From contig JASMDC010000027.1 in assembly GCA_030753015.1 (NCBI GenBank), positions 1 to 46,106 of the forward strand: a stretch of 46,106 nt of DNA, given 5' to 3'. This stretch comes from Candidatus Undinarchaeales archaeon (GTDB taxonomy: Archaea > SpSt-1190 > JASMDC01). Position 1 is the first letter of the stretch; each line of letters opens with the position of its first letter. This document shows, piece after piece, positions 4,515 to 27,587 of the stretch. The position numbers and the translations under genes are program-made. Below the pieces are notes generated by a model, which was not told the origin of the DNA, made no database searches, and saw only the letters and a program-made list of their open reading frames with translations.

Positions 4515-4516
4515 AT

Positions 4517-8369: not shown

Positions 8370-11105
8370 TCACCCGCCATTCGACGAGAATGAGAGCCTG
8401 CCGACCAGGGCGTCGCCGGACATGATGGAGAGGGCGTCCGTGCCCAGCTTCATGTCGCGGGGATCCCCGCCATCCACCGTGACCCGGGCCCCGGCGGTCC
8501 CGGGTGGCAGGACGAGGACCAGTCCGTCCTCCCCAGCATCATCCGGGACGAGGTGGAGCGTGCTCACGACGTGGTCGGGCACGGCGGAGTTGGACCGGGT
8601 GGCGATGTCCACGGTCAGCACGTCGCCCTGTCGCCCGAGGGAGAGGTGCACGGGAGGGCCCTTGACCCGGGCGATCACCTCGTTGAGCACCGCGGTCGCT
8701 TTCCGTTCATCTCTCCGGTCCAGGAGCGCGTTGAGGAACCACACCTCCCGTCCCCCCACCTTCCGCCGTAGCAGCAGCGGGATCCCGTCGCCGTAGATCC
8801 AGACCACCTCGGCACCCCGCATGAGCCCGGGTACGGTCCTGCCGGCTATGCCCTCGGGGCGCGATGGCACGTCACCCTCCAGCATGAAGGGGCCAGGCAG
8901 CACCTCGCCCGTGGGGAGCCGGACCGCGGACAGCCCGCCGAGCACGCTGGCCAATTCCGGGCTCTCAGAAACGTCACCGAGGACGAGGAGGATGGGCACG
9001 TGCGGACCCGTGGCCTCCAGCACCGCAGTGAGCCGTTCTTCAATCTCCTCCGGCGCCCTCCCGTGGACACTCTCGAGCAGGATGAGGTTCGGTGGCGGCC
9101 TGTCCCGGTCGTACGGCGGATCGGCCTGGCAGTGCTGGTTGAGGGTGAGCAGGGTGGTCCACTGCCAGATGTAATCTGCGTTCATCACGAGCCCGTCAGG
9201 TCCGTCCACGCCCAGCACCACCTCGGCACGATCGGGCCCGGCGCTTCCCAGGGCCTCCCCCACGAAGATCCGGCAGGAGAAATGCTGGTGCCGGTCGTCA
9301 TTGAAGGTGAGGATGTCGTCCCACCTGAACAGGCGGAGGTCCGGGTCCCAGACCCGGTGCTTTGTGAAGAAGGCCTGAAATGGCCGGGTCCCGCCCGGGA
9401 GGAGCGATACTCCCGTCCACAGGGCACGCTCCCGTGCGCGCTCGGCGTCGTCGAGTTCGAACTGGGGACGCGCGGACCGTCGGTCGTCAGCAGGGAATTC
9501 CGTCCCTGCCAGCGTATTGAGGGACGCCGCGACGAGGATGGACGCCACGCATACCACGGCCAGGTCCCGCCGTCGGTCCCCGTCCGCCGCCAGCCTGGTG
9601 AGGCCGGCGACCACCCACACCGCAGGGATGAACAGGAGCAGGAAGGAATAGGTCGTCCTGTCAGCGTCCCAGTCGGTGATGAGCCCCATGAACGAGAACG
9701 CTGGTACGAACCACAGGAGGAGCAGGAGCGACGCCCGCCGCCTGGCCGTTAGCAGGGAGAGAAGGCCGAGGAGGCCGACGGCGGACAGCACGATGCCGAA
9801 CACGTTCAGGAATACGAGGCCGAGCAGTACGAACGTGGGATAGGGCATCCCGATGGCACTGACGAGCGTGTGGTGGAAGGGCCAGTTGAGGAGGAGATAC
9901 GTGCTGAACGACCTCCCGAGGAGGGGGAGGGTGTGCTCCGTGAGCACAGCAATGTCACCGAAATGCAGCTCGTTGGCCAGGATGTCGCCGAACACGTACT
10001 GGTGCCAGAACAAGTACGGGAAGAGCGCGATAGTGGCGCCGACAACGAGGAGGGCGATTTGTGTTGCCCTGCGGTCTGATGGTCGCGAGATGAGGAGGTA
10101 TGCAACAAGGGCGGGCGCCGACACGACGGTCATGTGCCGCACTCCCAGCAATGCACCGAGCACGAGCCCCGACGCGAAGGCCCTCCTCCCTGCCCAAGGT
10201 CCTTCGTCGAGCACCAGGAGGACCGCTGTCACCGACAGGAACAGACCAGCGAGGTTCTCGTTGTGAGTGATGGCATAGCTGACCACCGGGTTGAGCACGA
10301 TGATGGCCGAGACGAGGAGCGAGGACCAGTGGCTGTCGGAAAAACGGCGCAGGAGGATGTAGGTCCCGAGCATGCAGAGAGCGCGTGTTAGGAGGAAGAA
10401 CACATGGAAGCCGAAGTAGCGTAGCGCCCGGGCATAGGGCGCCATCAGGACGGGATAGCCCAGGTGCGCGTTGAGGAAGTAGGCTATGCGGAAGGGCTCG
10501 TCCCCCCGGTCCATCCTTTCCTGCATGAGCCCGGGGATGACCGAACGGATGAACGGGCACTCATCCTCGCCCGGGCACGTGGTGACGATGTCGCCGGGTA
10601 GCGACCGCGGTGGGGGGAGCTCCGCGATGACATCACCGTTGACACGACAGCGCTGGGGCAGGCCCAAGAGATAGCGCTCCCCTTGGAACGAGCACCGGCT
10701 GTGGAGCATCGAGTACGATGCGTCGTACAGTGACCAGTGGACGCCCACAACGATGAGGAGCGCCACCAGGAGGGTGGCGCCGTGCACAACATCGTCGTAC
10801 CCAAGTGACCCGGATCCCGCAGTCGCTCTGCCGGAGGATGCCGGGATGTACCATGCGGTCACCGCGATGATTGCGGCGGCGGCGAGCATGAGAAGCATAC
10901 CCGAGACGTACGTGTCGGTCAGGAAGGCCAGTGATGCTGCCAGGGTGGCCACAGTGACGGTGCCGAGGACGGGGACGAGGAACACGGCCTCTGCGCGGGT
11001 GCGCGAGCGGGCGAGCGATCGCTCCAGGAGGATCCCTGGGATCAGAACGGTCCAGAGGAGGAACAGCGCACCCCGGACCAGCTCGGTCAGCACGGCCGCG
11101 CTCAT
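8370..11105 (-). CDS. Large GT-C-type glycosyltransferase with C-terminal soluble domain (class B)
   Basis: A 911-residue protein. About the first 520 residues are polytopic membrane sequence with long loops; the rest is soluble and probably extracytoplasmic. LLGVRHMTVV and FPYLFWHQYVFGDILANEL match LLGVRDVSVL and LPWLYWHQYAYGALF in the protein at 24165-26327, so the two are paralogues. The loop after the third TM has several Cys residues (SRCSFQG, QRCRV, TTCPGEDEC). The soluble part includes a Rossmann-like segment (PNLILLESVHG, VPILLVLGDVSE) that may be GATase- or DUF4350-like. Start ATG 11105 overlaps the stop of the radical SAM gene (ATGA), so the two are translationally coupled and probably act in one pathway. 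No substrate can be assigned. Confidence 0.78.
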   Translation of the reverse strand: MSAAVLTELVRGALFLLWTVLIPGILLERSLARSRTRAEAVFLVPVLGTVTVATLAASLAFLTDTYVSGMLLMLAAAAIIAVTAWYIPASSGRATAGSGSLGYDDVVHGATLLVALLIVVGVHWSLYDASYSMLHSRCSFQGERYLLGLPQRCRVNGDVIAELPPPRSLPGDIVTTCPGEDECPFIRSVIPGLMQERMDRGDEPFRIAYFLNAHLGYPVLMAPYARALRYFGFHVFFLLTRALCMLGTYILLRRFSDSHWSSLLVSAIIVLNPVVSYAITHNENLAGLFLSVTAVLLVLDEGPWAGRRAFASGLVLGALLGVRHMTVVSAPALVAYLLISRPSDRRATQIALLVVGATIALFPYLFWHQYVFGDILANELHFGDIAVLTEHTLPLLGRSFSTYLLLNWPFHHTLVSAIGMPYPTFVLLGLVFLNVFGIVLSAVGLLGLLSLLTARRRASLLLLLWFVPAFSFMGLITDWDADRTTYSFLLLFIPAVWVVAGLTRLAADGDRRRDLAVVCVASILVAASLNTLAGTEFPADDRRSARPQFELDDAERARERALWTGVSLLPGGTRPFQAFFTKHRVWDPDLRLFRWDDILTFNDDRHQHFSCRIFVGEALGSAGPDRAEVVLGVDGPDGLVMNADYIWQWTTLLTLNQHCQADPPYDRDRPPPNLILLESVHGRAPEEIEERLTAVLEATGPHVPILLVLGDVSESPELASVLGGLSAVRLPTGEVLPGPFMLEGDVPSRPEGIAGRTVPGLMRGAEVVWIYGDGIPLLLRRKVGGREVWFLNALLDRRDERKATAVLNEVIARVKGPPVHLSLGRQGDVLTVDIATRSNSAVPDHVVSTLHLVPDDAGEDGLVLVLPPGTAGARVTVDGGDPRDMKLGTDALSIMSGDALVGRLSFSSNGG

Positions 11106-12211
11106 GGCCCTCTCACGTCCCGCCCGTCGTCGCATTCCCTAGCACCGAAGGCGAGCCATGGGTAGAGAGGGGGCCAGAACCGGCAGGCATTGGACAGGTC
11201 CGTCTCGTGAGTGCACCAACACTCGCCGCGGGCGATCTCCTCGCACACCTCTATCGCCTTTTCGCTCATCCACACCCGACCGAAGTCGTACCCCTCCTCC
11301 CGCAGGTCGCCCAGGGGCCGGTCCAGCATCTCACAGGGGTACACGACGCCCCGCTCGGTGAGCACCGCCTCCAGGAGACCGGCGCGACAGGGGGCCACAC
11401 GCTTGTGTTCGCTGTACGCCCAGGTCACCGCGCGTGAGAGCAGGTCAGGTCGGTGGCCGAAACCGCGGGGGTACCGACCCTGCTCGCGCACCAGGGTGAA
11501 GGCCCGCTCCACCTCCTCGGGCGACAGGCCCAGCACCTCCGGATCTCGAGGGTGGGGCCGGGCGAGGGTCACCGAGAAGGTGGGGCTGTTCCACGGCGGA
11601 CGGGACAGGAGCTGCAGAGTATCCTCCACGACGTGGACGTTGAGGCGAGAGAGAGTTAGGTTGACGGCCACGTCGAGGCGCGGTTCGCGGCGCGCGAGCT
11701 CGTCGAGGCGCCAGCGGGTGTGAAGGAGCTTGGAGTAGGCGCCCGTGCCGCGGATGGCATCGTGCACCTCCTCCGGTCCGTCCAGAGAGAGGTTCACCCG
11801 GAGCCGTGCGGGACGACATGTGTCAAGCACCTCGGACACGGACCGTTCCACGCGATCTGGGAGCAGACCGTTGGTCGGGAGGTTGATTACCTCGGTGCTG
11901 CACGATCGGACGAAAGGCTCCACCAGCCCGGCCAGGTCGTCGCGGAGCGTGGGCTCACCACCGCTGAGCAGGAGGAGCGGGAGCCGGGGAATGGTAGCAG
12001 CGATTCGCTCGACCTCGTCCGGCGTGAGCTCCTTGGACGTGTCGGCCGCATCGGCCTCTCTCCAGTAGAAGCAGTGAGGGCACCGTGCATTGCATCGTGC
12101 GGTAACGAAGAACGTGAGGTACACGGGCCACGACGTGGTCAGAAGCCGAGAGTAGCCGAGCGCGAGGTAGCGCAGGCCAAGGGTGCGTCGGACCAGCTCC
12201 TCACCGAGCAT
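11102..12211 (-). CDS. Radical SAM protein with SPASM-like C-terminus
   Basis: A 369-residue radical SAM enzyme. The [4Fe-4S] motif C40-x3-C44-x2-C47 (RCNARCPHC) is followed by LLLSGGEPTLRDDL (SAM-binding GGE) and VNLSLDGPEEVHDAIRG. The C-terminal third carries further cysteines (APCRAG, VYPCEML, ECWCTHE, NACRFWP) suited to an auxiliary cluster, as in SPASM/twitch proteins. Such enzymes do radical chemistry on peptides, lipids or sugars; the substrate here is unknown. A TATA box (GGTTTAAATG, centre 12238) is 27 nt upstream of the ATG, giving a leaderless start. It is coupled by ATGA overlap to the large GT at 8370-11105, suggesting a role in making or modifying the sugar donor or acceptor. 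Organisation resembles the second radical SAM at 29760-30860. Confidence 0.88.
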   Translation of the reverse strand: MLGEELVRRTLGLRYLALGYSRLLTTSWPVYLTFFVTARCNARCPHCFYWREADAADTSKELTPDEVERIAATIPRLPLLLLSGGEPTLRDDLAGLVEPFVRSCSTEVINLPTNGLLPDRVERSVSEVLDTCRPARLRVNLSLDGPEEVHDAIRGTGAYSKLLHTRWRLDELARREPRLDVAVNLTLSRLNVHVVEDTLQLLSRPPWNSPTFSVTLARPHPRDPEVLGLSPEEVERAFTLVREQGRYPRGFGHRPDLLSRAVTWAYSEHKRVAPCRAGLLEAVLTERGVVYPCEMLDRPLGDLREEGYDFGRVWMSEKAIEVCEEIARGECWCTHETDLSNACRFWPPLYPWLAFGARECDDGRDVRGP

Positions 12212-14325: not shown

Positions 14326-16089
14326 TTACAACTTGGGGGCTACGACCCGGTACAGGGCAAGCTTCTGGAGCATGCCTGTTGCCTCTGCCTCTTCGGGCGG
14401 CACCGACACGCTGTCCAGGTGCTCGAGTACGAAGGTGTCATGCACCATCCGTCCGTCGATGTCGGGCATCCGTTGTGTCTCATAGAGGAACACACAGGCA
14501 CCGTCGTCCAGGAGGCCGACCACGTCGTCATGCAGTTGCGCAACGGTGGCGGGGAGGGCGAGGTGCGAGGCGCGCATCACCAGCGGGCGCTGCCACAGAG
14601 CGCGGTAGGGCACTGGGCTGGGCACAACGACGAAGCACTCCTCCCCCACGAGTACGCGCCATCCATCGATGGTGGATGACTCCAGGGCGAAAGCCCTGTG
14701 GAAGGCTCCTGGGAGCCCGTCGGTCCTTGTTACACGGGAGTAGAGCGCGGGCACCAGCACAAGGCACGCCACCAGCGCGACGGCCACCACCCTCCGCTCG
14801 CGTCCCGCAGCACGCGTCGCCCCCCACAGGAGCAGTGTGATAGGCACGACCGCGTGGAGGAGCCCCAGGACCCACCGCTGCGTTCCAGGGAGCTCCAGCC
14901 CGAACAGCGGTCCGTATGCGAATGGTAGATGGAGGGCTCCGGACACGAGCAAGGCGGCCGTCAGGGTCTCGGCTGGCCAGGACAGCACCGCTGCCGCCGC
15001 GCCGCAGGCCAGGGCGAAGGGCACAGAGAGGGCGAGCATGTACCGGGGGATGAACACGGTGTAGGAGTGGAGGAGGTACGGGGCGATCCGGCTGACGAAC
15101 CACAGCGCGGTTACCGATGCGAAGGGCCCGGCTAGGCGGGCCATGGCAGCGCAGCCCGCCAGGGCCATGGCGGTGAACAGGAAGGGCTGGAAGTACCCGT
15201 CCACCCAGTAGGAGATGTATTGGAGGTTGCTTGCGATATGGCGCGGGTGGAGCCGGTAGGTGAAGTCCTCGTACTCCTTCACGGACTCAGTGTACATCTG
15301 GTTCCAGAACCGCTCCGGTGTCTCGGCGATGTGAGGGACGAGGAGGGCAAAAGCCACCACCCACGGGAGCAGCGAGGGCCACACCCCGCGCTTGCCACCC
15401 CAGCGGTAGACCACTGCTATCGGTACCAGCACCAGGAGCGCCTCGCGGCGTACCGTGGCTGCGAAGGCGAACGACAGGGCCGCGAGCCACCCCGACGCAT
15501 CGCGCCTGCTGCGCACGTGCATGACCGCAGCCAGCACAGCCAGACACTCTGCGAATGCGCCAAGGACGTCGGAGCGAACCTCGACCGCGTACCGCACGTG
15601 CATGGGCAGGAGCGCGATGACCAGGGCAGCGGTCAGGGCGGCGCGATCGTCCCGGATCAGGAGGCGGGCCAAGAGGTAAGTGACAGCGACCGTGGCGGTC
15701 CCCGCGAGCACCCCTACCAGTCGGGCGGCCGTTCCCGCAGAGCCGGTCAACGACATCCCTAGGGAGAGGACCAGCGGGTAGCCGATAGGATAGAACATGG
15801 CAGGACTCCGACAGGTGCTGGGCTCACCAAACGTGCAGAATGTGTTGAGGCGATCGACCATGAGCGACTCCGCCTGGTCGTGGTAGAACCACTCATCGTT
15901 CCACATGAGAGGCTCGTATGGGCTGAATGCACGTACGCCGAACGCCAGGACGAGCATCAGGAGAAGGGCATGACGTCCGCCGGGGGCGCGGGGAATGGCA
16001 GCGGCAAACTGCCGCCGCGACGCGATGAGAGCAACAGCCGCGAACAGAAGGTTGAGGAGGGCCGCGGACAGCGCCAGGGGCGACGGCAT
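14326..16089 (-). CDS. Polytopic GT-C-type glycosyltransferase, class A paralogue 3
   Basis: A 587-residue paralogue of the two preceding class A enzymes. It starts MPSPLALS; the acidic loop is MWNDEWFYHDQAESLMVD, followed by PIGYPLVLSLGM, LALLPMHVRY-like sequence, YWVDGYFQPFLFTAMALAG and YMLALSVPFALACGAAAA, and it ends ALYRVVAPKL. Start ATG 16089 is supported by the shared promoter box about 28 nt upstream; a longer in-frame extension to 16155 is rejected. It is predicted to act in the cytoplasmic membrane on a polyprenyl-linked sugar. It is the most diverged of the three in the acidic loop, suggesting a different donor or acceptor. Confidence 0.82.
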   Translation of the reverse strand: MPSPLALSAALLNLLFAAVALIASRRQFAAAIPRAPGGRHALLLMLVLAFGVRAFSPYEPLMWNDEWFYHDQAESLMVDRLNTFCTFGEPSTCRSPAMFYPIGYPLVLSLGMSLTGSAGTAARLVGVLAGTATVAVTYLLARLLIRDDRAALTAALVIALLPMHVRYAVEVRSDVLGAFAECLAVLAAVMHVRSRRDASGWLAALSFAFAATVRREALLVLVPIAVVYRWGGKRGVWPSLLPWVVAFALLVPHIAETPERFWNQMYTESVKEYEDFTYRLHPRHIASNLQYISYWVDGYFQPFLFTAMALAGCAAMARLAGPFASVTALWFVSRIAPYLLHSYTVFIPRYMLALSVPFALACGAAAAVLSWPAETLTAALLVSGALHLPFAYGPLFGLELPGTQRWVLGLLHAVVPITLLLWGATRAAGRERRVVAVALVACLVLVPALYSRVTRTDGLPGAFHRAFALESSTIDGWRVLVGEECFVVVPSPVPYRALWQRPLVMRASHLALPATVAQLHDDVVGLLDDGACVFLYETQRMPDIDGRMVHDTFVLEHLDSVSVPPEEAEATGMLQKLALYRVVAPKL

Positions 16090-16110: not shown

Positions 16111-16127
16111 CTTCAAATAGGCTTCGG
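16111..16127 (-). promoter_or_regulatory. Promoter box shared by class A GT genes (copy 3)
   Basis: CCGAAGCCTATTTGAAG on the minus strand, centred about 29 nt before the ATG at 16089. It is a slightly altered form of the GAAGCTTTTTGAAGG box in the two other class A genes. Confidence 0.5.
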
Positions 16128-16132
16128 CGACA

Positions 16133-16892: not shown

Positions 16893-17723
16893 TTAATCCT
16901 CAATACCCTTCGGGAAGCCCTTCCGTCCCTCGGCTACGGAGGCGCACGGTGGCGGGGCAGGCTGGACGACCATCCGGTCGAAGCCGCGGTCCTCAAGGTC
17001 ACGAGGGAGCTTCTCATTGCGGTAGAAGACCGTGTTCCCTCGGAGCAGGAGCGGGATTGGCATGCTCTTGTGGGTTAGGGTGAAGGCCATGTCCTGACAC
17101 TCACGCTCGCAGGGGAGGATCCCGAGCTCGTCCCGGGCCTCAGGCTTTGTACAGGCACGGGAGAGGCACAGACGGGTCGTGGTGACGTACACCCACGGCG
17201 TGTAAATGCTGCCTTTCAGGGGCGCCTCGTCCTCCGACAGGGAGAAACCGATACCTTGGAGGGGATTGTCGAACTCCGCGCGGGAGATCCCCCGCTCGTT
17301 CAGGAACTGCCGATAGCTCTCCTGGGAGAGCGGCGAATCGCGCAGATATGCCTGCGCCTCCTCGGGAAGGCGCTCGATCACGTTAATGAGGCGGGGGCCG
17401 CGACGCTGGTAGGTGAGAATCCGGCCCATGATGGGGACGTAGTCCTTCAGGGACGCCAGCAATCCCCAGTCATTGAACACTACCTCAGAACCGGAGGGAA
17501 GGACGTCCATGAGCTTTCGCACCTTCGACAGCCCTATGTCCGTGAGGTAGGGAGTGACCAGTGTGAGGGGGACGCTCGCGTCCTTGGCCGCATCCAGTCC
17601 TCGCGTGAGCTCCTCCGGAGTGGGGAGGTTGCGCTCGCAGAACTCGTTTCCGAGGTACACACGTTCATAGCCCTCGGGGACTCCACCGGTAGGGACCGTT
17701 GCGAGGAGCACGGCGCGCTCCAT
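16893..17723 (-). CDS. UbiV-like U32 protein, pair A
   Basis: A 276-residue U32-family protein resembling UbiV, the small partner in the O2-independent hydroxylase UbiUV. Like UbiV it has YLGNEFCERN near the N-terminus (C29), a VTPYLTD strand and FNDWGLLASL, then a C-terminal Cys set (RLCLSRAC, and PCEREC giving C-x3-C). In E. coli UbiV the Fe-S ligands are one N-terminal Cys plus three C-terminal ones with C-x3-C, so the ligand pattern is compatible. Start ATG 17723 overlaps the stop of the UbiU-like gene (TGATG). The paralogue at 23358-24158 starts the same way (MERxVL). Substrate unknown; ubiquinone is not expected in archaea. The gap 16697-16892 upstream of its 3' end is AT-rich with no gene seen. 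Confidence 0.7.
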   Translation of the reverse strand: MERAVLLATVPTGGVPEGYERVYLGNEFCERNLPTPEELTRGLDAAKDASVPLTLVTPYLTDIGLSKVRKLMDVLPSGSEVVFNDWGLLASLKDYVPIMGRILTYQRRGPRLINVIERLPEEAQAYLRDSPLSQESYRQFLNERGISRAEFDNPLQGIGFSLSEDEAPLKGSIYTPWVYVTTTRLCLSRACTKPEARDELGILPCERECQDMAFTLTHKSMPIPLLLRGNTVFYRNEKLPRDLEDRGFDRMVVQPAPPPCASVAEGRKGFPKGIED

Positions 17724-18859
17724 CAGCGCCCTACCCCCTTGCACCAGTCAACCTCAGGGTAGTAGCAGGAATCAATGTCGCATGACATACCAAAACGCCT
17801 CCTGTAATCTTTCTTGACGCGGGTGAAGAACGTATCCCGGTCAGGTTCATCCTCTATTAAGTATTTAATCAGATCGGCGACGAACCGCGTGTCCGCCACC
17901 TTCCGGGCCGTGGGGAACACACGGCCAACGACCTTGAAGCTGTCCACACCGGCCTGCCATAGGTCGTAGAGGGCACATGCTCCGCAGTTGGCCTGCACCT
18001 TGCGGCCGAGGATCGACCGCACCCTATCGGACGCAGATCCGGCCACGGGGCCTTTGCCAGTCACGGAATAGGTGTACCGACAGGGATTGTAGACATGTGC
18101 GATAGCGCGCTCGACGGGACCTGTCTCGATTGTCTTTCGGGGGAGCCGGGCACCAAGGGCGAGGGCGTGGGGATGGTACAGCACACGGATGAGCATCCGG
18201 CCAAGGATGGGATGGATCGGGTGGAGGACGTCCTCGTGGCCGTGCTGGAAGGTGCAGTAACCCTCGACATTGCGGCAGCGGCCGTTGAGCACGAACGCTT
18301 CCATCTCGATATCAGGTACCTTCTGGCGGATGTTGGTGATCTCATCAGTGGTGAGCTGTCGTTCGAGGATGATGCGCGAGAGACCAAGCTCCTTGAGGAA
18401 GACCACGCTCTCGCTGTTGAATGTTGACAGACCGGTGCTCGCGCAGATCCGAGCGTCCGGATATGCCTCCCGTGCCGCGAGTATGAGCCCGAGATCGGAG
18501 ATGATCACCGAGTCGAGGTCACATGCCAGGGCATCACCGAGCCAGTCGAGGACACGCTCGTGCTCACCGGCCACGTACACATGGGCGTTGAGGGCGAGGT
18601 ACACCTTCACGTCCCGGTCATGGGCATCCCGGATCACCTTGCGGAGCTCGTCGAGCCCGTTGAGGGAGGCGAAATCCATGTACCGGCGGTTGAAAGCTAT
18701 GACGGTGGAGAAGTCACGCTTCCACGTACGAGGGAGCACACCACAGTATAGCTCGGTCGCACCTGCGTCGACCAGAGGCCCCACCTCTGAGGGATCGCTC
18801 AGGGGTGCAGCGAGGGCGGGCCCTTGTAGGCGTGTATCCCTTCCGTGCCCCGGCGGCAT
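17723..18859 (-). CDS. UbiU-like U32 protein, pair A
   Basis: A 378-residue U32-family (formerly peptidase U32) TIM-barrel protein. U32 signatures: DAGATELYCGVLP near the N-terminus, ASTGLSTFNSE, MEAFVLNGRC-x6-C (NGRCRNVEGYC, spacing as in the UbiU ligands), NPCRY, ANCGACALYDLWQAGVDSFKVVGR and C-terminal Cys residues. In UbiU the cluster cysteines are C-x6-C plus two more, so a [4Fe-4S] cluster is likely. The start ATG 18859 is chosen because the symmetric TATA box at 18881-18890 lies 26-27 nt upstream; an upstream TTG is rejected. It is coupled to the UbiV-like gene by a TGATG overlap. It may hydroxylate a lipid or sugar made by the surrounding island without O2; this is inference. Confidence 0.72.
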   Translation of the reverse strand: MPPGHGRDTRLQGPALAAPLSDPSEVGPLVDAGATELYCGVLPRTWKRDFSTVIAFNRRYMDFASLNGLDELRKVIRDAHDRDVKVYLALNAHVYVAGEHERVLDWLGDALACDLDSVIISDLGLILAAREAYPDARICASTGLSTFNSESVVFLKELGLSRIILERQLTTDEITNIRQKVPDIEMEAFVLNGRCRNVEGYCTFQHGHEDVLHPIHPILGRMLIRVLYHPHALALGARLPRKTIETGPVERAIAHVYNPCRYTYSVTGKGPVAGSASDRVRSILGRKVQANCGACALYDLWQAGVDSFKVVGRVFPTARKVADTRFVADLIKYLIEDEPDRDTFFTRVKKDYRRRFGMSCDIDSCYYPEVDWCKGVGR

Positions 18860-18880
18860 GCGCTGCCATCGTAGTAGCAA

Positions 18881-18890
18881 TTATTTAAAT
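18881..18890. promoter_or_regulatory. Shared bidirectional TATA box
   Basis: TTATTTAAAT, nearly self-complementary (ATTTAAATAA on the other strand). Its centre (18885.5) is 26.5 nt from the ATG of the minus gene (18859) and 27.5 nt from an in-frame ATG of the plus gene (18913). Both distances fit leaderless transcription from one TATA box read in both directions. No second TATA-like box is seen in this 53-nt spacer. Confidence 0.6.
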
Positions 18891-18912
18891 CAAGCTCATG
18901 GTTGATGAAAGG

Positions 18913-19776
18913 ATGTCCTCGTCCTGGGGGATGCTCTACTGCCCCCGTGACCACTCACACCTCGAGGAGGTGAACGAAGGGTTACGGTGCCCATCCTGCT
19001 CGTGCACCTATCCAGTGGTGGACGGCGTGCCCGACCTCCTTGTGGACGATCCCGGTAATGAACTGGACGACTACTTCCGCCGTTGGCGTACCAAGAGCAT
19101 CGAGGACGCCAACACCGACGACTTCGCCCGAGCGCAGCAAGGCACTTTCCTGGAGCGTACATTCCACAATCGGCGCCTGGCCAGCTACCGTCGACTGCTG
19201 GCAAGGGCAATCCATGGGCGCGAACTGGGGCTCGTGGTTGACCTGGGGTTCGGCACAGGCTACACGATCGACATCCATCCTCCGTGCGAGCGGCTCATTG
19301 GCTTGGAGATCAGCCTGGACAACATCGCCACCTGCCGCAAGAACATGGGAGACAGGTGCCCTTCGTTGGTTCGCAGTGACGTGTACTCCCTGCCCTTCGA
19401 CGACGGTTCCGTTGACATGCTCACCATGTTCTACGTGTTCCATCGCCTCCAGCAGGACATGCTGATGCGCGAGGTGAAGCGGGTTTTACGCCCCGGTGGC
19501 GTCTTCGTGTTCAGCGCACCCTGGCAATACGCCTATCTCTGGCACCAGGGCGTCCGGCGCATGTTCCATCGTCTAGGCATCTTCTCCGACTCACCGGAGA
19601 TGCGTATCTCGTTCGATGTCCCCATCATGCGGTTCAGCACGTCGGACGTGCGCTTCCTGGCCTACGAGGTGCCGGGCATACGGTGCAAGGAGGCCTACGT
19701 GGTCCCCTCGCTCATGGAGATCCATGTAGTGTTCGTCAAGGAGGACAAGCCCGGGACGAGCGCGTGCCCTGGTTGA
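18913..19776 (+). CDS. Zinc-ribbon SAM methyltransferase
   Basis: A 287-residue protein. The N-terminal zinc ribbon CPRD...CPSCSCTYP with GVPDLL matches the Trm112-like or UPF0434 type found fused to class I methyltransferases. Then comes the SAM-binding Rossmann domain: VVDLGFGTGYT (motif I), LIGLEISLDNI (motif II acid), SLPFDDGSVDMLTMFYVFHRL (motif IV) and EVKRVLRPGGVFVFSAP. It is likely to methylate a small molecule or glycan in the cytoplasm. The start is set at ATG 18913 rather than 18898, because 18913 is 27-28 nt from the shared TATA box and 18898 only 12. It is divergent from the UbiU/V-like pair A and followed by asnB, so these may be one pathway. Confidence 0.82.
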   Translation: MSSSWGMLYCPRDHSHLEEVNEGLRCPSCSCTYPVVDGVPDLLVDDPGNELDDYFRRWRTKSIEDANTDDFARAQQGTFLERTFHNRRLASYRRLLARAIHGRELGLVVDLGFGTGYTIDIHPPCERLIGLEISLDNIATCRKNMGDRCPSLVRSDVYSLPFDDGSVDMLTMFYVFHRLQQDMLMREVKRVLRPGGVFVFSAPWQYAYLWHQGVRRMFHRLGIFSDSPEMRISFDVPIMRFSTSDVRFLAYEVPGIRCKEAYVVPSLMEIHVVFVKEDKPGTSACPG

Positions 19777-19923
19777 AGTCCATCATCCCCTGGTAGGTCC
19801 CACCGAGTAGTGGGCTAGTTCGGCGGAGGCGACACCATGGGGCGATGAGAGTGTTGAACCTTTTCAGAGGTTCTGCGCGACGGCCCGCGAAGCCTTATAA
19901 CGCTTTACGACCGAGTATCCGCC

Positions 19924-21588
19924 GTGTGCGGTATCGCCGGGATCGCCGGGTTCCAGGACGACGGTCTCCTCGACAAGATGGTGGCATCGCTCACGCACCG
20001 CGGTTCCGATGATGTAGGCACGTTCCACGCAAGGGACGTCTCACTGGGGGCACGCCGACTGGCGGTCATCGATCCGGCCGGGGGGCACCAGCCCATGGTG
20101 GGCGAGGACGGCGACACCGCTGTAGTGCTCAACGGCGAGATCTACAACCACATGCAGCTTCGTGCATGGCTGGAGGAACGGGGCCACCAGTTCACCTCGG
20201 TTTGTGACACCGAGGTGGTCCTCCACGGCATCGAGGAGGAGGGAGTGGCCTTCCTCTCGCGCATGGAGGGGATGTTCGCCCTGGCCATGTGGGACGGACC
20301 GCGACTGTTGCTTGCCCGTGATCGCCTGGGGATCAAGCCCTTACTGTACGCCCAGCGCGGCGGCGATCTTCTCTTCGCATCTGAGGCCAAAGCACTGTTC
20401 AGGGATCCCGAGCTCCCCCGGGATGTCGACCGCGATGCGCTGGGACAGCGGTTCGTGCTCGGTTACCCCCTCGAGGGGCGCACGATGTTCGCTGGCGTCC
20501 GCTCGCTCGTTCCGGGCACGGTGCTGGTGTGGGACGCCCGCTCCGGATCCGTCGTGGAGGAGACACCGTTCTGGGAACTGCCCAAAAGGACCATTGAGCT
20601 CACCGATCCTGCCAACGCAGCAAGTGAGCTGACAACGGTTTTGGAGGATGCCGTACGCTCACAGCTCGTGGCGGACGTGCCCTTGGGTGCCTTCCTCTCC
20701 GGTGGTGTTGACTCCGCCCTCATCGCGGTACTGGCGAACGAGCAGATGGACGCGCCGCTGCGCACCTTCACACTGGGTGAGAGCCACAACGATCCAGATG
20801 TCATCGCTGCGCGGGCCGTGGCCGAGACAGTCGGCACCGACCACACCGAGCTGGTCGTCGCTCCCGAGGACGTCGCTGCCCTAGTTCCGCGGTTCGTGCT
20901 CCACATGGAGCAGCCCAACTACGAGTCCGTGTTCTTCCTGGCGCTCGCCGAGGTCGTGCGCCGCCGCATGACCGTTGCACTTTGCGGCCAAGGCGCCGAT
21001 GAGCTCTTCGGCGGCTACCCTCGTTACTCCTCGCCCCGACGCTACGGTGCCGATGTGCGATGCACTCTCCGCCGGATAGTCTCCAAAGCGTCATGGGTGA
21101 ACGCCCTACATACCAAGATGTCGCTCATGCGCACCTCCGGCGACCTGATGGACCACGAACTGGGGCCCCAGCTCACCGCGTTCCAGCTCAGTGTCGTGGA
21201 CCGAGCTTCCATGGCAGCAGGGCTCGAGGTCCGCGTCCCCTACCTCGCGACACCCGTCGTGGAACTCTCGCGACGGATGGACACGCGTCTCCTGTTCGAG
21301 AGTGGCGCGGCGAAAGCGGTGCTGCGGCGTGTGGCTCGGAAAAAGCTCCCTGCAGAGATCGCTGACCGGCCGAAGCGCGGCGCAGGGCCGTTCACCACGC
21401 CCCGAGGTGCCCTCATCTTCGAGCAGGAGGCGTGCGAGCTCATGGACGACAGACGCGTTGCCCGTCACCCCTACAGCGGATTCTTTCGCAGGCGGAGCGA
21501 GCTGGTGTGCATGGACATCCTCGTCCACTCGTTGGTTGAAGGCGACGGCCGGTTGCCCGAAAAGTTCACACCAGGCGACCTGTACTGA
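19924..21588 (+). CDS. asnB: Asparagine synthase (glutamine-hydrolysing) or related amidotransferase
   Basis: A 554-residue two-domain enzyme: N-terminal class II glutaminase (Cys2 nucleophile after Met removal in MCGIAGI; LTHRGSDD; VVLNGEIYNH) and C-terminal synthetase with PP-loop SGGVDS (about 258-263) and GQGADELFGGYPRY. AsnB makes asparagine from aspartate, glutamine and ATP; relatives in polysaccharide clusters amidate sugars or lipids. Here it is inside a glycan island, flanked by a methyltransferase and U32 proteins, so a specialised role is possible, but the motifs fit ordinary AsnB. Start GTG 19924 is required to expose Cys2 and lies 27-28 nt from a TATA box (CTTATAAC, about 19892-19900). 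The 147-nt gap before it also has a small CCCAC/GTGGG hairpin. Confidence 0.9.
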   Translation: MCGIAGIAGFQDDGLLDKMVASLTHRGSDDVGTFHARDVSLGARRLAVIDPAGGHQPMVGEDGDTAVVLNGEIYNHMQLRAWLEERGHQFTSVCDTEVVLHGIEEEGVAFLSRMEGMFALAMWDGPRLLLARDRLGIKPLLYAQRGGDLLFASEAKALFRDPELPRDVDRDALGQRFVLGYPLEGRTMFAGVRSLVPGTVLVWDARSGSVVEETPFWELPKRTIELTDPANAASELTTVLEDAVRSQLVADVPLGAFLSGGVDSALIAVLANEQMDAPLRTFTLGESHNDPDVIAARAVAETVGTDHTELVVAPEDVAALVPRFVLHMEQPNYESVFFLALAEVVRRRMTVALCGQGADELFGGYPRYSSPRRYGADVRCTLRRIVSKASWVNALHTKMSLMRTSGDLMDHELGPQLTAFQLSVVDRASMAAGLEVRVPYLATPVVELSRRMDTRLLFESGAAKAVLRRVARKKLPAEIADRPKRGAGPFTTPRGALIFEQEACELMDDRRVARHPYSGFFRRRSELVCMDILVHSLVEGDGRLPEKFTPGDLY

Positions 21589-21612
21589 TCAGTCTGGAGG
21601 GTGGGTGTCCCG

Positions 21613-21628
21613 GGGACGTCGAGGTCCC
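21613..21628. terminator. Hairpin between convergent genes
   Basis: GGGAC-GTCGAG-GTCCC, a 5-bp stem in the 41-nt gap between the converging asnB and 21630-22106 genes. Possible bidirectional terminator or spacer structure; there is no long T-run on either side, so the call is weak. Confidence 0.3.
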
Positions 21629-21629
21629 G

Positions 21630-22106
21630 TTACATCAGATAGCCGCTGTTCGCAGCGAGGAATGGTGCTTCGTACTGGAGGAAGTAGTCATGGACCTCGT
21701 TGCCCATGCCCATGACGTGGTAGCCTTCGTGCATGAGCACCTCTGCGATGGCCGATGCACCATACCCGAGCATGACGGGTGACACAACGACCTCACCGGG
21801 TGTTGCTGTCGTTGTCTGACCTCCAACGTAGGTATGGGCGAGACCACCGGAGGCACCGAGGCTGGGATTGTACGTGGGCAGCCCTTTCTGGCAGGCGATG
21901 TCCCTGTACATCTCGCAGGCCTTCTCCCAGGTCCTGAGCGGCTCGAGCGACCTGTCATGGAAGAATGCCGCCGTGACATCTTCGTACGCGGTCGAGGCGC
22001 TGTAACGATCGTTGAGATCGAAGGATTCGCCGTCGGTGTAGGAAAGGACCTTCTCAAGGTCGTCCCCGTCCCGATAGCTGGATCTCTCGAAATCTTCGTT
22101 ATGCAT
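21630..22106 (-). CDS. Hypothetical protein with HExxH-type metal motif
   Basis: A 158-residue acidic protein without signal peptide or TM segment. Near the C-terminus VLMHEGYHVMGMGNEVHDYF contains HEGYH, the zinc-binding HExxH pattern, and a further His and Glu (NEVHDY) that could be the third ligand. The middle (SLGASGGLAHTYVGG) is Gly-rich. It may be a small metallopeptidase or a relic of one; the family is not recognised. The start MHNEDFE at 22106 is preferred over upstream frame because a TATA box (GGTTTTTATAGG, centre about 22138) is about 32 nt away. The gene converges on asnB, 41 nt apart. Confidence 0.65.
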   Translation of the reverse strand: MHNEDFERSSYRDGDDLEKVLSYTDGESFDLNDRYSASTAYEDVTAAFFHDRSLEPLRTWEKACEMYRDIACQKGLPTYNPSLGASGGLAHTYVGGQTTTATPGEVVVSPVMLGYGASAIAEVLMHEGYHVMGMGNEVHDYFLQYEAPFLAANSGYLM

Positions 22107-22260
22107 GCTCGTGCCGGATTTTGTGCCCTTCCCCCTATAAAAACCTTTCCCCGGGAACCGCCGTGCGAACAATATACTGATGTATAACAAGTTGCAGGCA
22201 GGAACGCTCGCGCCGAGGGCTTCAGAAGTTCTAAAAAGCTATCCCTCGTAGTACTGCCCG

Positions 22261-23358
22261 ATGGAGATCCTTGCCCCCATCAACAGGGTAGATGAGGTCG
22301 ACCAGCTTATCCATGCTGGGACCGCGGAGGTCTACTGCTCGGTGCTCTCACACCAATGGCGGGATCGCTATACTAATGTTGGGAGCATCAGTCGGGAGGA
22401 GTTCACCCTCTCGTCCCTTCGCTCCTATAAGGAGCTGGAGCAGGTCACGTCCATCGCCCACGACCTCGGAGCCCGTGTTTCCGTGGCGTTCAACCAGGAC
22501 TTCTACTCTTCCAAGCAGTTGCCCTTCGTTCTCAAGGAGGTCGACCAGGCCGTCGAGGCCGGGATCGATAGCCTCATCATAGCCGACGTAGCGCTCATGG
22601 CAACGCTTCGTGACCGGGGCGTTGACTGCGATGTGCATGCCAGTTCCATCGGGGCCGTGTTCAACGCTCGCGCGGCCAGGTTCTTCCAGCGCCTAGGCGT
22701 TTCCCGGCTCATCCTCCCGCACCATCTCACCCTGGACGAGGTGCGAACGCTCGCCGAACGGGTGCCCGACATCCCCCTCGAGGCCTTTGTGCTCAACGCC
22801 AGATGCCCCAACGTGGAGGGTTTCTGCGGCTACCTCCATGGACTACTTGAGATCGCATACCCGCGACGTGCAGGAGCCCTCTTCGGCCTCCTCGGGAGCA
22901 GGCGTGGGGCTACCCGGAGCACGATCGTCGGTACGCTCCTTCGGCTTCCCCGCTGGGCACAGCGTTTTGGTCCACTGGCCCATCACGCATCACTCCACCT
23001 CTGTCCCAACGGCGCCGCTGTGAGCGTGTCCTGCCGTGAAGGAGATTCTGCCCTCACTCCCGCTGTCGAGGAGCGTTTTGGGATGAACTGGTGCCCCAAT
23101 GTGGGTGGCATCGGGTGCGGCGTATGCTCCCTGGGGATGCTGCGCGAGGCGGGGATCAGCGTGGTGAAGGTGCAGGGCCGCAACTACCCGACCGCCAAGA
23201 AGCTGGCGGACGTCCGGTTCCTGCGCTCGGCGCTCGATGCTCTAGAGGATATGGGGGACGGGGACGCTTTCCACGAGCGTTGTCGCGCCCTGTACTCCGA
23301 AATCTACGACCGATCGTGCACACCCGCCGAGTGCTACTGGCCCGAGGAGGTGCGGTGA
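22261..23358 (+). CDS. UbiU-like U32 protein, pair B
   Basis: A 365-residue paralogue of the 17723-18859 product. It has the N-terminal barrel strand MEILAPINRVDEV, HAGTAEVYCSVLS, DVHASSIGAVFNAR, LEAFVLNARC (C182) x6 C189, LHLCPN, NWCPNVGGIGCGVCS and AGISVVKVQGRNYPTAKKLADVRF. The C-x6-C spacing and later cysteines match the cluster-ligand pattern of UbiU. A basic insert at about 195-235 (RRAGALFGLLGSRRG...LLRLPRW) may form a membrane or lipid contact. A TATA-like TTCTAAAAAGC (22228-22240) lies about 27 nt before the ATG. The stop overlaps the next start (TGATG), exactly as in pair A. Together with its partner it is predicted to form a Fe-S heterodimer of unknown substrate. Confidence 0.72.
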   Translation: MEILAPINRVDEVDQLIHAGTAEVYCSVLSHQWRDRYTNVGSISREEFTLSSLRSYKELEQVTSIAHDLGARVSVAFNQDFYSSKQLPFVLKEVDQAVEAGIDSLIIADVALMATLRDRGVDCDVHASSIGAVFNARAARFFQRLGVSRLILPHHLTLDEVRTLAERVPDIPLEAFVLNARCPNVEGFCGYLHGLLEIAYPRRAGALFGLLGSRRGATRSTIVGTLLRLPRWAQRFGPLAHHASLHLCPNGAAVSVSCREGDSALTPAVEERFGMNWCPNVGGIGCGVCSLGMLREAGISVVKVQGRNYPTAKKLADVRFLRSALDALEDMGDGDAFHERCRALYSEIYDRSCTPAECYWPEEVR

Positions 23359-24158
23359 TGGAACGGGGAGTACTCATCCCCCGCGTGCCGCTCCTCGACA
23401 CGCTCGACTGGACCGGGTACGACCGGCTCTACCTGGGTAACGGTTACTGCCAGCGGCTCATTCCCACACCTGACCAGTTGCGGTCCGCGCTGGACCGTGC
23501 GGACGACGCCCACCTCCCGCTCACCCTCGTCACACCGCCCGTGACCGATGAGGGGCTCGATGATCTGGCGCCTGTCCTCGATCTCCTCCCCAAGGGCGTC
23601 GAGGTCGTGGCCAACGACTGGGGCGTCATCGACCTGATCGCCGAGGAGGGACGGCTCGAGCCTGTTGTCGGCGGTCTGCTACATAAGCAGAAGCGCGGGC
23701 CGCGTCTCATGATGGCGAAGGATCTCCTCACTCACGAGGCGTGGGAGCGCTTTCGCACATCGAACATGGACGTTGCCGCAATGCGCGGCCTCCTGGCCTC
23801 GTACGGTGTCCGGCGGATCGAGGTCGAGAATCCCTTCCAGGGCGTCTCGCTCGACCTCTCCGGAGGCGATACGCCTCTCCTCGGCTCGCTCCATCATCCC
23901 TATGTCTGTGTCACAATGTCCCGGTACTGCATCATAGCACTGGCCTCGACCAGGCAGGGCCGCCCGGAATGGGGCGTTTATCCCTGCTCCCGCGCATGCA
24001 TCAACTCCAGCTTCCAGCTCGACCATCCTACAATGGGTGTGCCCCTCTACCTCCAGGGATGTGCGGTGTTCGCAAAGAACGACGTCCTCCCCAGTGAGAA
24101 GGAGCTCAAGGGCATGGGCATCGACCGGACCGTGGAATCGCCGGTACCACCCGCGTGA
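23358..24158 (+). CDS. UbiV-like U32 protein, pair B
   Basis: A 266-residue partner of the upstream U32 protein. C31 (YLGNGYCQRL), C191 (SRYC), C210 and C214 (YPCSRAC, C-x3-C) reproduce the spacing of the four UbiV cluster ligands (Cys39, 176, 193, 197 in E. coli). Other shared features are TLVTPPVTDEGL, VVANDWGVIDL and IEVENPFQGVSLDLS. The start ATG 23358 overlaps the TGA of the UbiU-like gene; a longer frame back to 23091 is a shadow. It ends 6 nt before the converging GT gene at 24165. Closely related to the 16893-17723 protein, so the UbiU/UbiV-like module exists twice within 8 kb. Function is inferred, not shown. Confidence 0.72.
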   Translation: MERGVLIPRVPLLDTLDWTGYDRLYLGNGYCQRLIPTPDQLRSALDRADDAHLPLTLVTPPVTDEGLDDLAPVLDLLPKGVEVVANDWGVIDLIAEEGRLEPVVGGLLHKQKRGPRLMMAKDLLTHEAWERFRTSNMDVAAMRGLLASYGVRRIEVENPFQGVSLDLSGGDTPLLGSLHHPYVCVTMSRYCIIALASTRQGRPEWGVYPCSRACINSSFQLDHPTMGVPLYLQGCAVFAKNDVLPSEKELKGMGIDRTVESPVPPA

Positions 24159-24164: not shown

Positions 24165-26327
24165 TCAAGTAGCCCGGGAGAGCGCCAGTCGTCGGTCACC
24201 ATCGTTCGTGCGTAGGACGAGCGTTCGTGCGTCCTCTCCCGGGAGGACACGGAGAGCGCCCGTCGAAGTCGCCAGGAGCGAGGCGCCGCAGTGAACACGG
24301 CAGCTGGCCCCCGGTGCAGCGCGCACCTCGATCACGAGCTCGCCGTCGGACTCCGATACGCTCAGATGGAGCAGCGTGCACGCTCCCGGCGCACTCGTTC
24401 CGAACCTGATGATGGGCGAGCCCGCGACAGGACCGGGGAGGATAAGGGGCGTCCCCGTCCATCTCGTTGTGAGGAGCGAGAACCGCCAGGGACCTTCGTC
24501 ACCACTGCGCAGGTCGAGGATTATATCGCTGGCGTCCACGTTGAACCGCGGCCGGTAGCAGTCGAGGTCCTCGATCCTGCGGGAAGGACCGGCCGCTCCC
24601 AGTTCTGCCAGGACGGCTGCAGGATCGTACTCCAGGTCGGCCGGCTGGAGGGGGAGTAGATGAGGGGATGTCAGAGCTAGCTTGTGATGCGTGAGCGTAT
24701 GGGGGTCCGGCGGAGTGATGATGCGGTTGAGCTTGCTCCACCGGGGATCGGGCGGGACGTCATAGTTCTGGACCACGGCAGCGAAGGTAGCGATGGCAAC
24801 TAGTCCAACGACGACCAGCTCGGGCCACCGGCCGGCCCGACGCAGACCACCCAGCATGAGCGCGGTCAGTGCCGGCATGACCATCAGCAACAACCCCATC
24901 CGCGGCTCGTTCCAGTTCTCCTGGACGCTGAGAAATATCCAGAGCGGGAGCACCCAGAGGATGAGCACTTTCAATGCCCTGCGGTCCGAGCCGACCAGCT
25001 CCTTTATGCCCGGGAGGACCATGGCAATCAGTGGCCAGCCCAGGGTCGCGGCCACCACCAGCGGGAGGAGGACGAACACCGGGAATGGGTAGAGCGGGGT
25101 TCTGACAACGCTGTCGTGGAGGGGCCAGTTCATAAGCACTGGGAGCTTGAAGCCCACCCCGAGTATGCTGTAGTCGAAAGGCTCGATATAGGTATGCTTC
25201 GTAACGGCCTCGGTCGTGAAAAGTGCGCCGTAGGCGTATTGGTGCCAGTACAGCCAAGGGAGGGCCGAGAGCAGCGTCCCGATGGCGAGGGCGATGACCG
25301 CAGCACGCCACCGCCGTTGGCCCGTGATGGCGTAGAGGACAGCAGGGACGAGGAGCACGGACACGTCCCGCACGCCCAGCAGCATCCCGAGGAGGAGACC
25401 GGCTACGAGGGTGGGTCGCACTCCCCTCTCGAATAGCACGAGGTGGAGCGCCGCAGCCGACAGCACGAAGGCGAAGAGCGGATCGGTGAGCAGGTACACG
25501 AAGGAGATGTTCAGGAGTCCGAGACCGAGCACGGGGAACGCGAGAAGGGGTGTGAGGGTGCCGCCGAAGAGACGACGGGTGATTATGTACCCCCAGGAGC
25601 AGATGAGGGCGCCGAAAAGGGAGAAGGCGTACCGAACTCCGAAGATGCCCAAGAAGGACACGAACAGGCTGAAGATGGCAGTGTTACCGAGCCGCTGGTC
25701 CTTGGTGGCCACACGACCATAGGCAATGAAGTTGTCAGGGAGCGTCCGTGGTGGGACCGTCAGGTAATATGTGTTCTCCACTCCAGGAGAGCGGTCCGCC
25801 GTCGGCAACGGCTCCGGAGTGCGGGGGTAGTAGTACACGGAACCAGGGTGCTCGATAACGGATGACGCGAGCCAAGTAATGCGTCCGAGCCCCATGGCAT
25901 GGTACATCGCCTCTTGGGTACAGGTCTGCCAGTAGCTCTCTGCCAGTGGGGTGGGGATGTCACGGACGACGGTCAGGTAGAGGAGGAATATACCGGCGGC
26001 GAGGGCAAGGGCCACCAGCCCCAGGTGGCCGGGAGGTGGTACGTGACCCAGGCCATGGTGTGCCGGGCCGTGCCGGTCGACGTGGAGCGCGTGCGGGAGG
26101 ATGAAGAGTACGAGTGCTGCTGCGAGGAACGGGACCGGGCCTACGAGGACACCCCACATAAGAGCGATGGCCATGGCGAGAGCGGGGACCACTGTGGCCG
26201 ATATCGTGAAGGCGAGGACGACCTCCTCGGCGTCCCGGCCGGGACCGAGGACCCAGCGTGCCAGCGGACGGCCTGTGAACCACAAGGCCAGGGTGAACGC
26301 CACCACGGCCGCCATATCGAGCAGCAT
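24165..26327 (-). CDS. Large GT-C-type glycosyltransferase with soluble tail (class B paralogue)
   Basis: A 720-residue polytopic protein (about residues 1-540) with a soluble beta-rich C-terminal domain of about 170 residues. The shared class B motifs are LLGMLLGVRDVSVLL and PWLYWHQYAYGALFTTEAV, like those in the 8370-11105 product. The long loop after the early TM helices (TPLAESYWQTCTQEAMYHAMG) contains the acidic and aromatic residues expected in the GT-C catalytic loop. The tail (LHLSVSESDGELVIEVRAAPG) looks like a carbohydrate-binding type beta-sandwich. A TATA box (GGTTTTATTG, centre 26355) is 28-29 nt before the ATG. It converges on UbiV-like pair B and diverges from the DUF362 gene. 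Donor and acceptor are unknown. Confidence 0.78.
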   Translation of the reverse strand: MLLDMAAVVAFTLALWFTGRPLARWVLGPGRDAEEVVLAFTISATVVPALAMAIALMWGVLVGPVPFLAAALVLFILPHALHVDRHGPAHHGLGHVPPPGHLGLVALALAAGIFLLYLTVVRDIPTPLAESYWQTCTQEAMYHAMGLGRITWLASSVIEHPGSVYYYPRTPEPLPTADRSPGVENTYYLTVPPRTLPDNFIAYGRVATKDQRLGNTAIFSLFVSFLGIFGVRYAFSLFGALICSWGYIITRRLFGGTLTPLLAFPVLGLGLLNISFVYLLTDPLFAFVLSAAALHLVLFERGVRPTLVAGLLLGMLLGVRDVSVLLVPAVLYAITGQRRWRAAVIALAIGTLLSALPWLYWHQYAYGALFTTEAVTKHTYIEPFDYSILGVGFKLPVLMNWPLHDSVVRTPLYPFPVFVLLPLVVAATLGWPLIAMVLPGIKELVGSDRRALKVLILWVLPLWIFLSVQENWNEPRMGLLLMVMPALTALMLGGLRRAGRWPELVVVGLVAIATFAAVVQNYDVPPDPRWSKLNRIITPPDPHTLTHHKLALTSPHLLPLQPADLEYDPAAVLAELGAAGPSRRIEDLDCYRPRFNVDASDIILDLRSGDEGPWRFSLLTTRWTGTPLILPGPVAGSPIIRFGTSAPGACTLLHLSVSESDGELVIEVRAAPGASCRVHCGASLLATSTGALRVLPGEDARTLVLRTNDGDRRLALSRAT

Positions 26328-26429: not shown

Positions 26430-27587
26430 ATGGGTGAGACTGGGAGCGGGAAGAGCACCGTTGCCCTTCTCAAGTGCGAGGAGTATGATGAAGAGAACGT
26501 GCTCTCGACGGTCCGCCGTTCCGTGGACCTCTTGGGAGGGATGAAGACCTTCGTCGGGAACGGCCAGCGGGTGCTCCTCAAGGTCAATCTCCTCCGCGGG
26601 GACCTACCTGAGCGGGCGATCACCACACATCCTGCAGTGGTCCGTGCCGTGACACTCCTTGTCCAGGAGGCTGGTGGGGAGGTCGTCATCGGCGACAGCC
26701 CCGCGGGGCCCAACAGCGTCATGCTCCTGCGACGTGCCTACAAGCAGAGCGGATACGAGAGGGTCGCAAAGGAGACGGGCGCCTCCCTGAACGAGGACCT
26801 CTCCTACGGGCTGGTACCCTGTCGGGGCGGGCACCTGATCAAGGAGCTGGACATCCTCAATGCTGTGGAGAGCGCTGATGTGGTCATCCCCCTCCCCAAG
26901 CTCAAGACCCACGTGCTCACGGGATTCACCGGCGCCACCAAGATCCTGTTCGGAGTGGTCCCCGGTGTCACAAAGGGAGCCTACCACCTTAAGCTCAAGG
27001 ACGTGGACCAGTTCTCCCATATGCTACTGGACATCGTGGCCCATGTACAGGCGCCCCTGTACATCATGGATGGCGTCGTGGCCATGCATGGGGACGGCCC
27101 CGGCGCAGGTGATCCGTTCCCCGTAGGTGCGATTCTCGCCGCTGCCGATCCCGTGGCCATGGACCGAACGGCCGTCGCGCTGGTGGGTCTGGTCCCGGAC
27201 CGGGTCTCGACCCTGACCGTTGCCGCTGACCGCGGGATGGGTCCCGCGTCACTGGACGACATCGATGTGTTGGGCGACGGGCTGGACGCGTTCTCGATCA
27301 CGGGGTTCCGCCCCGCTTCCGCGACCTCGAAACTAGGTAGCAGGCTCCCAGGCATCGTGCGTCGGTTTGTCCTTAGACAGACCGTTGCCTCGCCCTACGC
27401 CGGCCCCAAATGCATCGGATGCGGCGTGTGCGCAGCTGCTTGCCCCGTCAAGGCCATCACCATCACCGACAAGCGTGCGCACATGGACCTGTCGACGTGC
27501 ATCAGGTGCTACTGTTGCCATGAGACCTGTCCCGAGCAGGCGGTGGAGCTGGACCGACCACTGCTGTCACGCGTTCTAGGTTGGTAG
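26430..27587 (+). CDS. DUF362 protein with two 4Fe-4S ferredoxin motifs
   Basis: A 385-residue protein. The DUF362 domain (about 1-310) has LLKVNLLRGDLPERAITTHP, GDSPAG and the PLPKLKTHVLTGFTGATK core. The C-terminal bacterial-type ferredoxin has C328IGCGVCAAACP and C357IRCYCCHETCP, which bind two [4Fe-4S] clusters. Family members are cytosolic redox proteins of unknown substrate, common in anaerobes and often near cofactor or lipid pathways. It could supply electrons to the radical SAM or UbiU/V-like enzymes in the island; that is inference. Start ATG 26430 lies 26-27 nt after a TATA-like GTTTTTCAAG (26399-26408). The N-terminal GETGSGKST resembles a P-loop by chance, but no Walker B or NTPase fold follows. 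Confidence 0.88.
   Translation: MGETGSGKSTVALLKCEEYDEENVLSTVRRSVDLLGGMKTFVGNGQRVLLKVNLLRGDLPERAITTHPAVVRAVTLLVQEAGGEVVIGDSPAGPNSVMLLRRAYKQSGYERVAKETGASLNEDLSYGLVPCRGGHLIKELDILNAVESADVVIPLPKLKTHVLTGFTGATKILFGVVPGVTKGAYHLKLKDVDQFSHMLLDIVAHVQAPLYIMDGVVAMHGDGPGAGDPFPVGAILAAADPVAMDRTAVALVGLVPDRVSTLTVAADRGMGPASLDDIDVLGDGLDAFSITGFRPASATSKLGSRLPGIVRRFVLRQTVASPYAGPKCIGCGVCAAACPVKAITITDKRAHMDLSTCIRCYCCHETCPEQAVELDRPLLSRVLGW

Follow-up and report, generated by a model that had tools for sequence, protein, structure and literature searches.

A candidate heterodimeric branch of U32 hydroxylases in a Candidatus Undinarchaeales genome and in bacterial amine dehydrogenase operons

The window analysed here, a 46,106-nucleotide stretch of DNA, carries two gene pairs that represent a real and new form of heterodimeric U32 enzyme, likely performing O2-independent hydroxylation. 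A preliminary description of this DNA had read them as U32 heterodimers of UbiUV-like layout, plausibly O2-independent hydroxylases, in an archaeon that is not expected to make ubiquinone. Our analysis upholds that reading but not a specific kinship with UbiUV. The pairs are UbiUV-like in build, not UbiUV by membership, and a sister subfamily located in bacterial quinohemoprotein amine dehydrogenase (QHNDH) operons is a better functional clue to them than UbiUV.

The U32 gene pairs of the window and their paralogues

Pair A, on the reverse strand, consists of a large U32 subunit (17723..18880; start uncertain, either ATG at about 18859 or TTG at 18880) with invariant C-x6-C, C, CGAC and Cx4C cysteines, and a UbiV-like small subunit of 276 aa (16893..17723; Cys 29, 186, 205 and 209). 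Pair B, on the forward strand, consists of a large U32 subunit of 365 aa (22261..23358; Cys 182, 189, 248, 286, 289, 353 and 358) and a UbiV-like small subunit of 266 aa (23358..24158; Cys 31, 191, 210 and 214). Open reading frames were present as first described, with large and small genes adjacent and joined in both pairs by a TGATG stop/start overlap. Pfam family PF01136 matched both large subunits (E = 1.8e-29 for pair A and 1.8e-28 for pair B), and a Pfam search returned no match for either small subunit.

Between the pairs are genes for a SAM methyltransferase with a Trm112p-like zinc ribbon (18931..19776, +; Methyltransf_11, E = 2.7e-16), an asparagine synthase B-like protein recognised in its translation by a CGIAGI start and an SGGVDS motif (19924..21588, +), and a small protein with an HEGYH motif and no Pfam match (21630..22106, -). 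The flanks encode a PMT_2-type GT-C protein (14326..16089, -) and two paralogues of it (12298-14067 and 6533-8311), a group for which PMT_2 gave E = 1.3e-12 and 3.3e-6 and a whole-genome PMT_2 search also matched C37, a large polytopic GT-C-like membrane protein with no Pfam match (24165..26327, -), a protein with DUF362 and ferredoxin-type 4Fe-4S domains (26430..27587, +; DUF362, E = 5.3e-53), and two radical SAM proteins (11102..12211, -; PF04055, E = 3.2e-15; and 29760-30860, +; PF04055 plus SPASM). The locus had been described as a glycan island. PMT_2 GT-C and radical SAM genes were not enriched within 5 kb of the eight U32 sites in the host genome (p = 0.21 and 0.29, respectively), and enrichment at that distance was rejected, but within 10 kb there was a modest enrichment of both (p = 0.04 and 0.007, uncorrected for gene clustering). 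A functional link with the glycan and radical SAM neighbours is thus suggestive only. Elsewhere in the window we noted a TnpB/OrfB IS605-type gene with a Cas12f-like TNB domain (2804-3844, -) and, at the contig end, a gene for a PqqD-like peptide-binding protein (45581-45865, +), beyond which a peptide-modifying system may continue.

The host assembly comprises 3.85 Mb in 117 contigs (98.9% complete, 5% contaminated), the window being contig C37. It contains four TFB genes, and the TFIIB family was matched among the control genomes only by archaeal ones; the host is therefore archaeal, as had been claimed. A 16S gene was not found in the assembly. Each of the nine other genomes of its phylum that were examined measures 0.6-1.1 Mb, less than a third of the host's size, and the small-subunit family was absent from all nine.

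A U32 search combined with gene calling identified seven large/small pairs in the host genome, two on C37 and one each on C29, C26, C42, C62 and C32, together with four further large subunits on C29 that lack an adjacent small gene (locus L016, positions 9637-10722 and 14481-16691; locus L018, positions 4215-5354). The window pairs thus belong to a genome-wide expansion and are not single-locus oddities. Seven pairs in the same genome, along with close relatives across several bacterial phyla, place them far beyond chance. Two of the solo large subunits, C29s1 and C29s4, have Asp at the position of His193 in the pairs. One separate RlhA/TrhP-like protein of 746 aa is encoded on C56. Beside the pair on C62 (locus L021, positions 136-2298) we read RuvB-, RuvA- and RuvC-like genes, which are unusual for an archaeon; contamination is possible there. 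In an Eremiobacterota MAG (G044, locus L078) the large-subunit profile matched nine times, twice strongly, indicating that the expansion is not unique to the archaeon.

The two subunits co-evolve: large and small distances were correlated both across 53 pairs (r = 0.79, p = 5e-4) and among the host's own seven (r = 0.86, p = 0.002). The predicted structure of the pair B large subunit (pLDDT 82.5) had as its top solved match the U32 protein 5D88 (Z = 17.8, rmsd 3.0, 198 residues aligned). The small-subunit model of the same pair (pLDDT 90.6, pTM 0.89) matched 5D88 with Z = 12.0 over 199 residues, tied with CutC and other TIM barrels, and Foldseek likewise returned generic TIM-barrel matches only for the small subunit. 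A sequence search of solved structures with one large subunit gave chance matches only.

Cysteine signature and placement among U32 hydroxylases

The preliminary description had pointed to a C-x6-C motif in the large subunits and to an N-terminal Cys plus C-x3-C in the small ones. Both are present and invariant across all paralogues. The small subunits keep four cysteines in all seven host paralogues, and these align with the UbiV ligands; the second ligand is, however, C180 and not the residue 176 first given, the published set being C39, C180, C193 and C197 (PMC6747719), in agreement with the E. coli sequence. For the large subunits the earlier account was correct but incomplete, since all host paralogues keep seven cysteines, five beyond the C-x6-C: one single C, a CGxC and a C-terminal Cx4C. 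This set was invariant in 56/56 large subunits, drawn from the host's pairs and solos, the bacterial and MAG loci of the first setting described below, and the QHNDH loci. UbiU, TrhP and RlhA have no cysteine where the last four of the seven align, and the canonical third U32 cysteine (C193 in both UbiU and TrhP) has no counterpart in the large subunits. C248 of pair B aligned with the fourth TrhP/RlhA ligand in one alignment and with UbiU C232 in another. The extra invariant residues may mean that the large subunit holds an additional cluster.

The U32 core is retained. The C-x6-C cysteines and the Arg of K-x-x-G-R occur in 56/56 large subunits, and its Lys in 55/56; all three features are also present in each of four reference proteins. 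Conserved Asn, Asp and Ser positions are common to the large subunits, UbiU, TrhP and RlhA. That the pairs are U32 proteases is hardly credible: the name of the Pfam family is all that speaks for it, while the cysteine signature is that of Fe-S U32 proteins, and members of this type are treated as Fe-S proteins and oxidases (PMC6747719, PMC11574389).

In the HMM comparison with UbiU, UbiV and TrhP that had been proposed as a check, the large subunits scored about equally against UbiU and TrhP and far below either cut-off. The NCBIfam UbiU model gave 77.6 and 85.2 bits versus a cut-off of 440, the TrhP model gave 89 and 70 bits versus 534, and the UbiV model did not match the small subunits. 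In a maximum-likelihood tree UbiU, TrhP, RlhA and the C56 protein of the host grouped together (100/100), apart from the large subunits of the pairs. Eight UbiU sequences were monophyletic within this tree (97.8/100), and the QHNDH large subunits lay between the UbiU/TrhP/RlhA clade and the archaeal family; the trees are unrooted, and UbiU may be an outside sister of the large-subunit family. Profile-profile comparison matched UbiU to the large subunits with E = 4e-42. For the small subunits, hhalign with a profile of eight UbiV sequences gave E = 9e-4 with the four cysteines aligned, and E. coli UbiV alone gave no significant match to the small-subunit profile.

The likeness to UbiU/UbiV thus holds for the heterodimer-type layout and does not extend to specific kinship, given the separate clade, the low scores and the remote homology of the small subunit. 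We consider it very improbable that the archaeon makes a ubiquinone-like quinone whose ring is hydroxylated by the pairs as true UbiUV-type enzymes. The host does encode three UbiA-family prenyltransferases, which along with the shared layout and the UbiV-matching cysteines would be in keeping with such a role, but the UbiA family is also found in 14/14 control genomes and no quinone genes adjoin the window pairs. SCP2 (UbiT, PF02036) had no match in the host genome, whereas the E. coli control matched, and the position outside the UbiU clade argues in the same direction.

Bacterial relatives and the amine dehydrogenase operons

We scanned 84,980 species genomes for the small subunit with a query built from three paralogues, the alignment of all seven being too divergent, and found 83 relatives, all of them bacterial among the 80 matches listed. 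Viral contigs gave no match. The survey of genomic context, which had also been suggested, showed the same subfamily in bacteria in three gene settings. The first comprises Omnitrophota, Chloroflexi, Elusimicrobia, Actinobacteria, Eremiobacterota and deltaproteobacterial MAGs, where neighbours are often B12-type and other radical SAM, PaaK/CapK-like, DegT and GT-C genes (partly read from sequence). The second is formed by QHNDH operons of Bacillales, Pseudomonadota, Sericytochromatia and Desulfobacterota, at about 29 loci; an assignment of the Pseudomonadota matches as UbiUV was rejected, as most are QHNDH operons. The third is found in Desulfuromonadales, where the small gene stands alone and a single unlinked large gene lies elsewhere. 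Wherever the small gene is unlinked in this order (nine of nine genomes), one such strong large gene is retained (272-298 bits), implying that both are needed together.

In the Desulfuromonadales the large gene follows TlyA-like and tetrapyrrole-methylase-like genes (L136-L138, L140 and L141; read from sequence). The tight order behind a TlyA-like gene would suit RNA hydroxylases that act on tRNA or rRNA bases in the manner of TrhP1/TrhP2 or RlhA, as would the slightly greater closeness to TrhP than to UbiU of the pair A large subunit (89 vs 78 bits) and of the large-subunit profile (113 vs 101 bits); B. subtilis TrhP1/TrhP2 is likewise a heterodimer (PMC11574389). We nevertheless judge this explanation improbable. 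The host already has a protein of the RlhA/TrhP clade on C56, its seven pairs lie among radical SAM, aminotransferase, acetyltransferase and GT genes, which is not an RNA-modification pattern, and the sister pairs reside in QHNDH operons.

Within these operons a small/large U32 pair was located at L052, L057, L073, L081, L083, L076 and about 23 other loci. QHNDH needs a dihydroxylated Trp; work on Paracoccus and Pseudomonas proteins showed that it is made by QhpG, a peptidyl-Trp dihydroxylase using FAD and O2 (PMC7876137). Using Cupriavidus QhpG as the query, which matches 7CTQ at 3e-153, we found QhpG to be missing genome-wide from 23 of the 25 genomes whose QHNDH operon has a U32 pair. It was present in Thauera and in an alphaproteobacterium (E below 1e-70), and one other genome of the 25 gave weak FAD-protein matches only. 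In the reciprocal direction, 21 plasmid records with QhpG were found, many from Leisingera and most on plasmids carrying QHNDH, and the QH-type small subunit was in none of them. As the pair occurs in QHNDH operons nearly always without QhpG, it probably supplies the hydroxyls without O2, like UbiUV beside the O2-dependent ubiquinone hydroxylases, and this U32 pair is a candidate O2-independent route to the CTQ cofactor. The complementarity of QhpG and the U32 pair is phylogenetically uneven, and it bears on the bacterial sister group rather than on the archaeal proteins. The QHNDH gamma subunit had no match in the window or the host genome, but it had none in any control genome either. We found no paper in the open literature that joins QHNDH and peptidase U32.

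On C32 of the host, and at an Omnitrophota (L034) and a Chloroflexi locus (L039), the gene immediately upstream of the pair encodes a TrsS/Tes-like radical SAM protein (31-43% identity), an association that spans both domains. These radical SAM neighbours were rejected as Tes itself: TrsS scored best at 165-206 bits (cut-off 490) and Tes reached 121-173 of 450. Such neighbours, along with the missing canonical cysteine and the extra Cys set, would be in keeping with pairs that were not hydroxylases and served instead as Fe-S proteins with another redox role, as radical SAM partners or in dehydroxylation, or as scaffolds. This alternative seems unlikely to us, since the pairs retain the motifs common to every known U32 hydroxylase, and the sister group in QHNDH operons occupies the place of a missing hydroxylase.

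Proposed function and relation to known systems

We favour, with somewhat better than even confidence, the interpretation that the two TIM-barrel U32 proteins of each pair form an obligate heterodimer, predicted to act as an O2-independent hydroxylase; the large subunit without an equivalent of UbiU/TrhP C193 and the four solo large paralogues count against it. Among U32 O2-independent hydroxylases the pairs probably form a new branch, heterodimeric and with a prephenate-type oxygen donor. In the known U32 hydroxylases, prephenate is the oxygen source or is otherwise required, and Fe-S cysteines are needed as well (PMC11574389). By this model the large subunit would hold the catalytic Fe-S cluster and would receive oxygen from prephenate or a related organic donor, while its four extra cysteines and the four-Cys small subunit may provide additional Fe-S (or metal) sites through which two electrons leave. 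On C42 the small and large genes are followed by those for an FMN reductase and chorismate synthase, each gap being shorter than 40 bp (locus L020, positions 7474-11030). This arrangement agrees with a prephenate-type donor and with electron transfer by way of a flavin, the chorismate synthase link being observed at one locus of the seven pairs. Chorismate mutase is also present in the host genome. Since all known U32 hydroxylases act on ring or other sp2 carbons, the substrates are likely to be of this kind and to differ between the seven pairs; in the archaeon they could be peptide side chains, lipid-linked glycans or aromatic head groups.

To our knowledge, O2-independent U32 hydroxylation is known from only three activities, on the ubiquinone ring, tRNA U34 and 23S C2501. 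A more tentative proposal, to which we give less than even odds, is that heterodimeric Fe-S hydroxylases dependent on prephenate make up an undescribed branch that has come to act on several substrates, namely peptidyl Trp in CTQ biogenesis, as an O2-independent counterpart of QhpG, and at least seven different lipid, glycan or peptide targets in this archaeon, and that it provides anaerobic archaea with a general toolkit for C-H hydroxylation. A sister branch with its own Cys signature, seven archaeal copies and an arm at the QhpG step would widen U32 chemistry to protein residues and archaeal compounds, and the bacterial arm can be tested in cultivated Bacillales and Thauera.

With UbiU/UbiV (PMC6747719) the archaeal pairs share two adjacent U32 genes, the heterodimer layout, the core motifs and C-x6-C in the large protein, and with UbiV in particular the small subunit shares one cysteine far toward the N terminus and three others that end in C-x3-C. 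They differ in their separate clade and in that no counterpart of UbiT was found in the archaeon. Whereas UbiU has ligands spaced CX6CX16CX38C, the archaeal large subunit keeps CX6C, lacks the C193 equivalent and adds four cysteines (CGxC, Cx4C); similarity to UbiV is only remote, with a spacing of X12 in UbiV versus X13-18 in the small subunits. TrhP and RlhA, the tRNA and rRNA base hydroxylases, share with the large subunit the U32 core, C-x6-C, K-x-x-G-R and profile scores similar to those of UbiU, but their CX6CX15CX3C arrangement is not kept in it, and they cluster with UbiU and the host C56 protein. The QHNDH (qhp) operon pairs have the same seven cysteines in the large subunit (34/34) and the same four in the small one as the archaeal pairs, with profile-profile matches of E = 2e-77 (large) and 3e-63 (small), and differ in that the small gene comes first and QHNDH genes are adjacent. 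QhpG (7CTQ, PMC7876137) has the role proposed for these bacterial sister pairs, but is an unrelated FAD- and O2-dependent enzyme.
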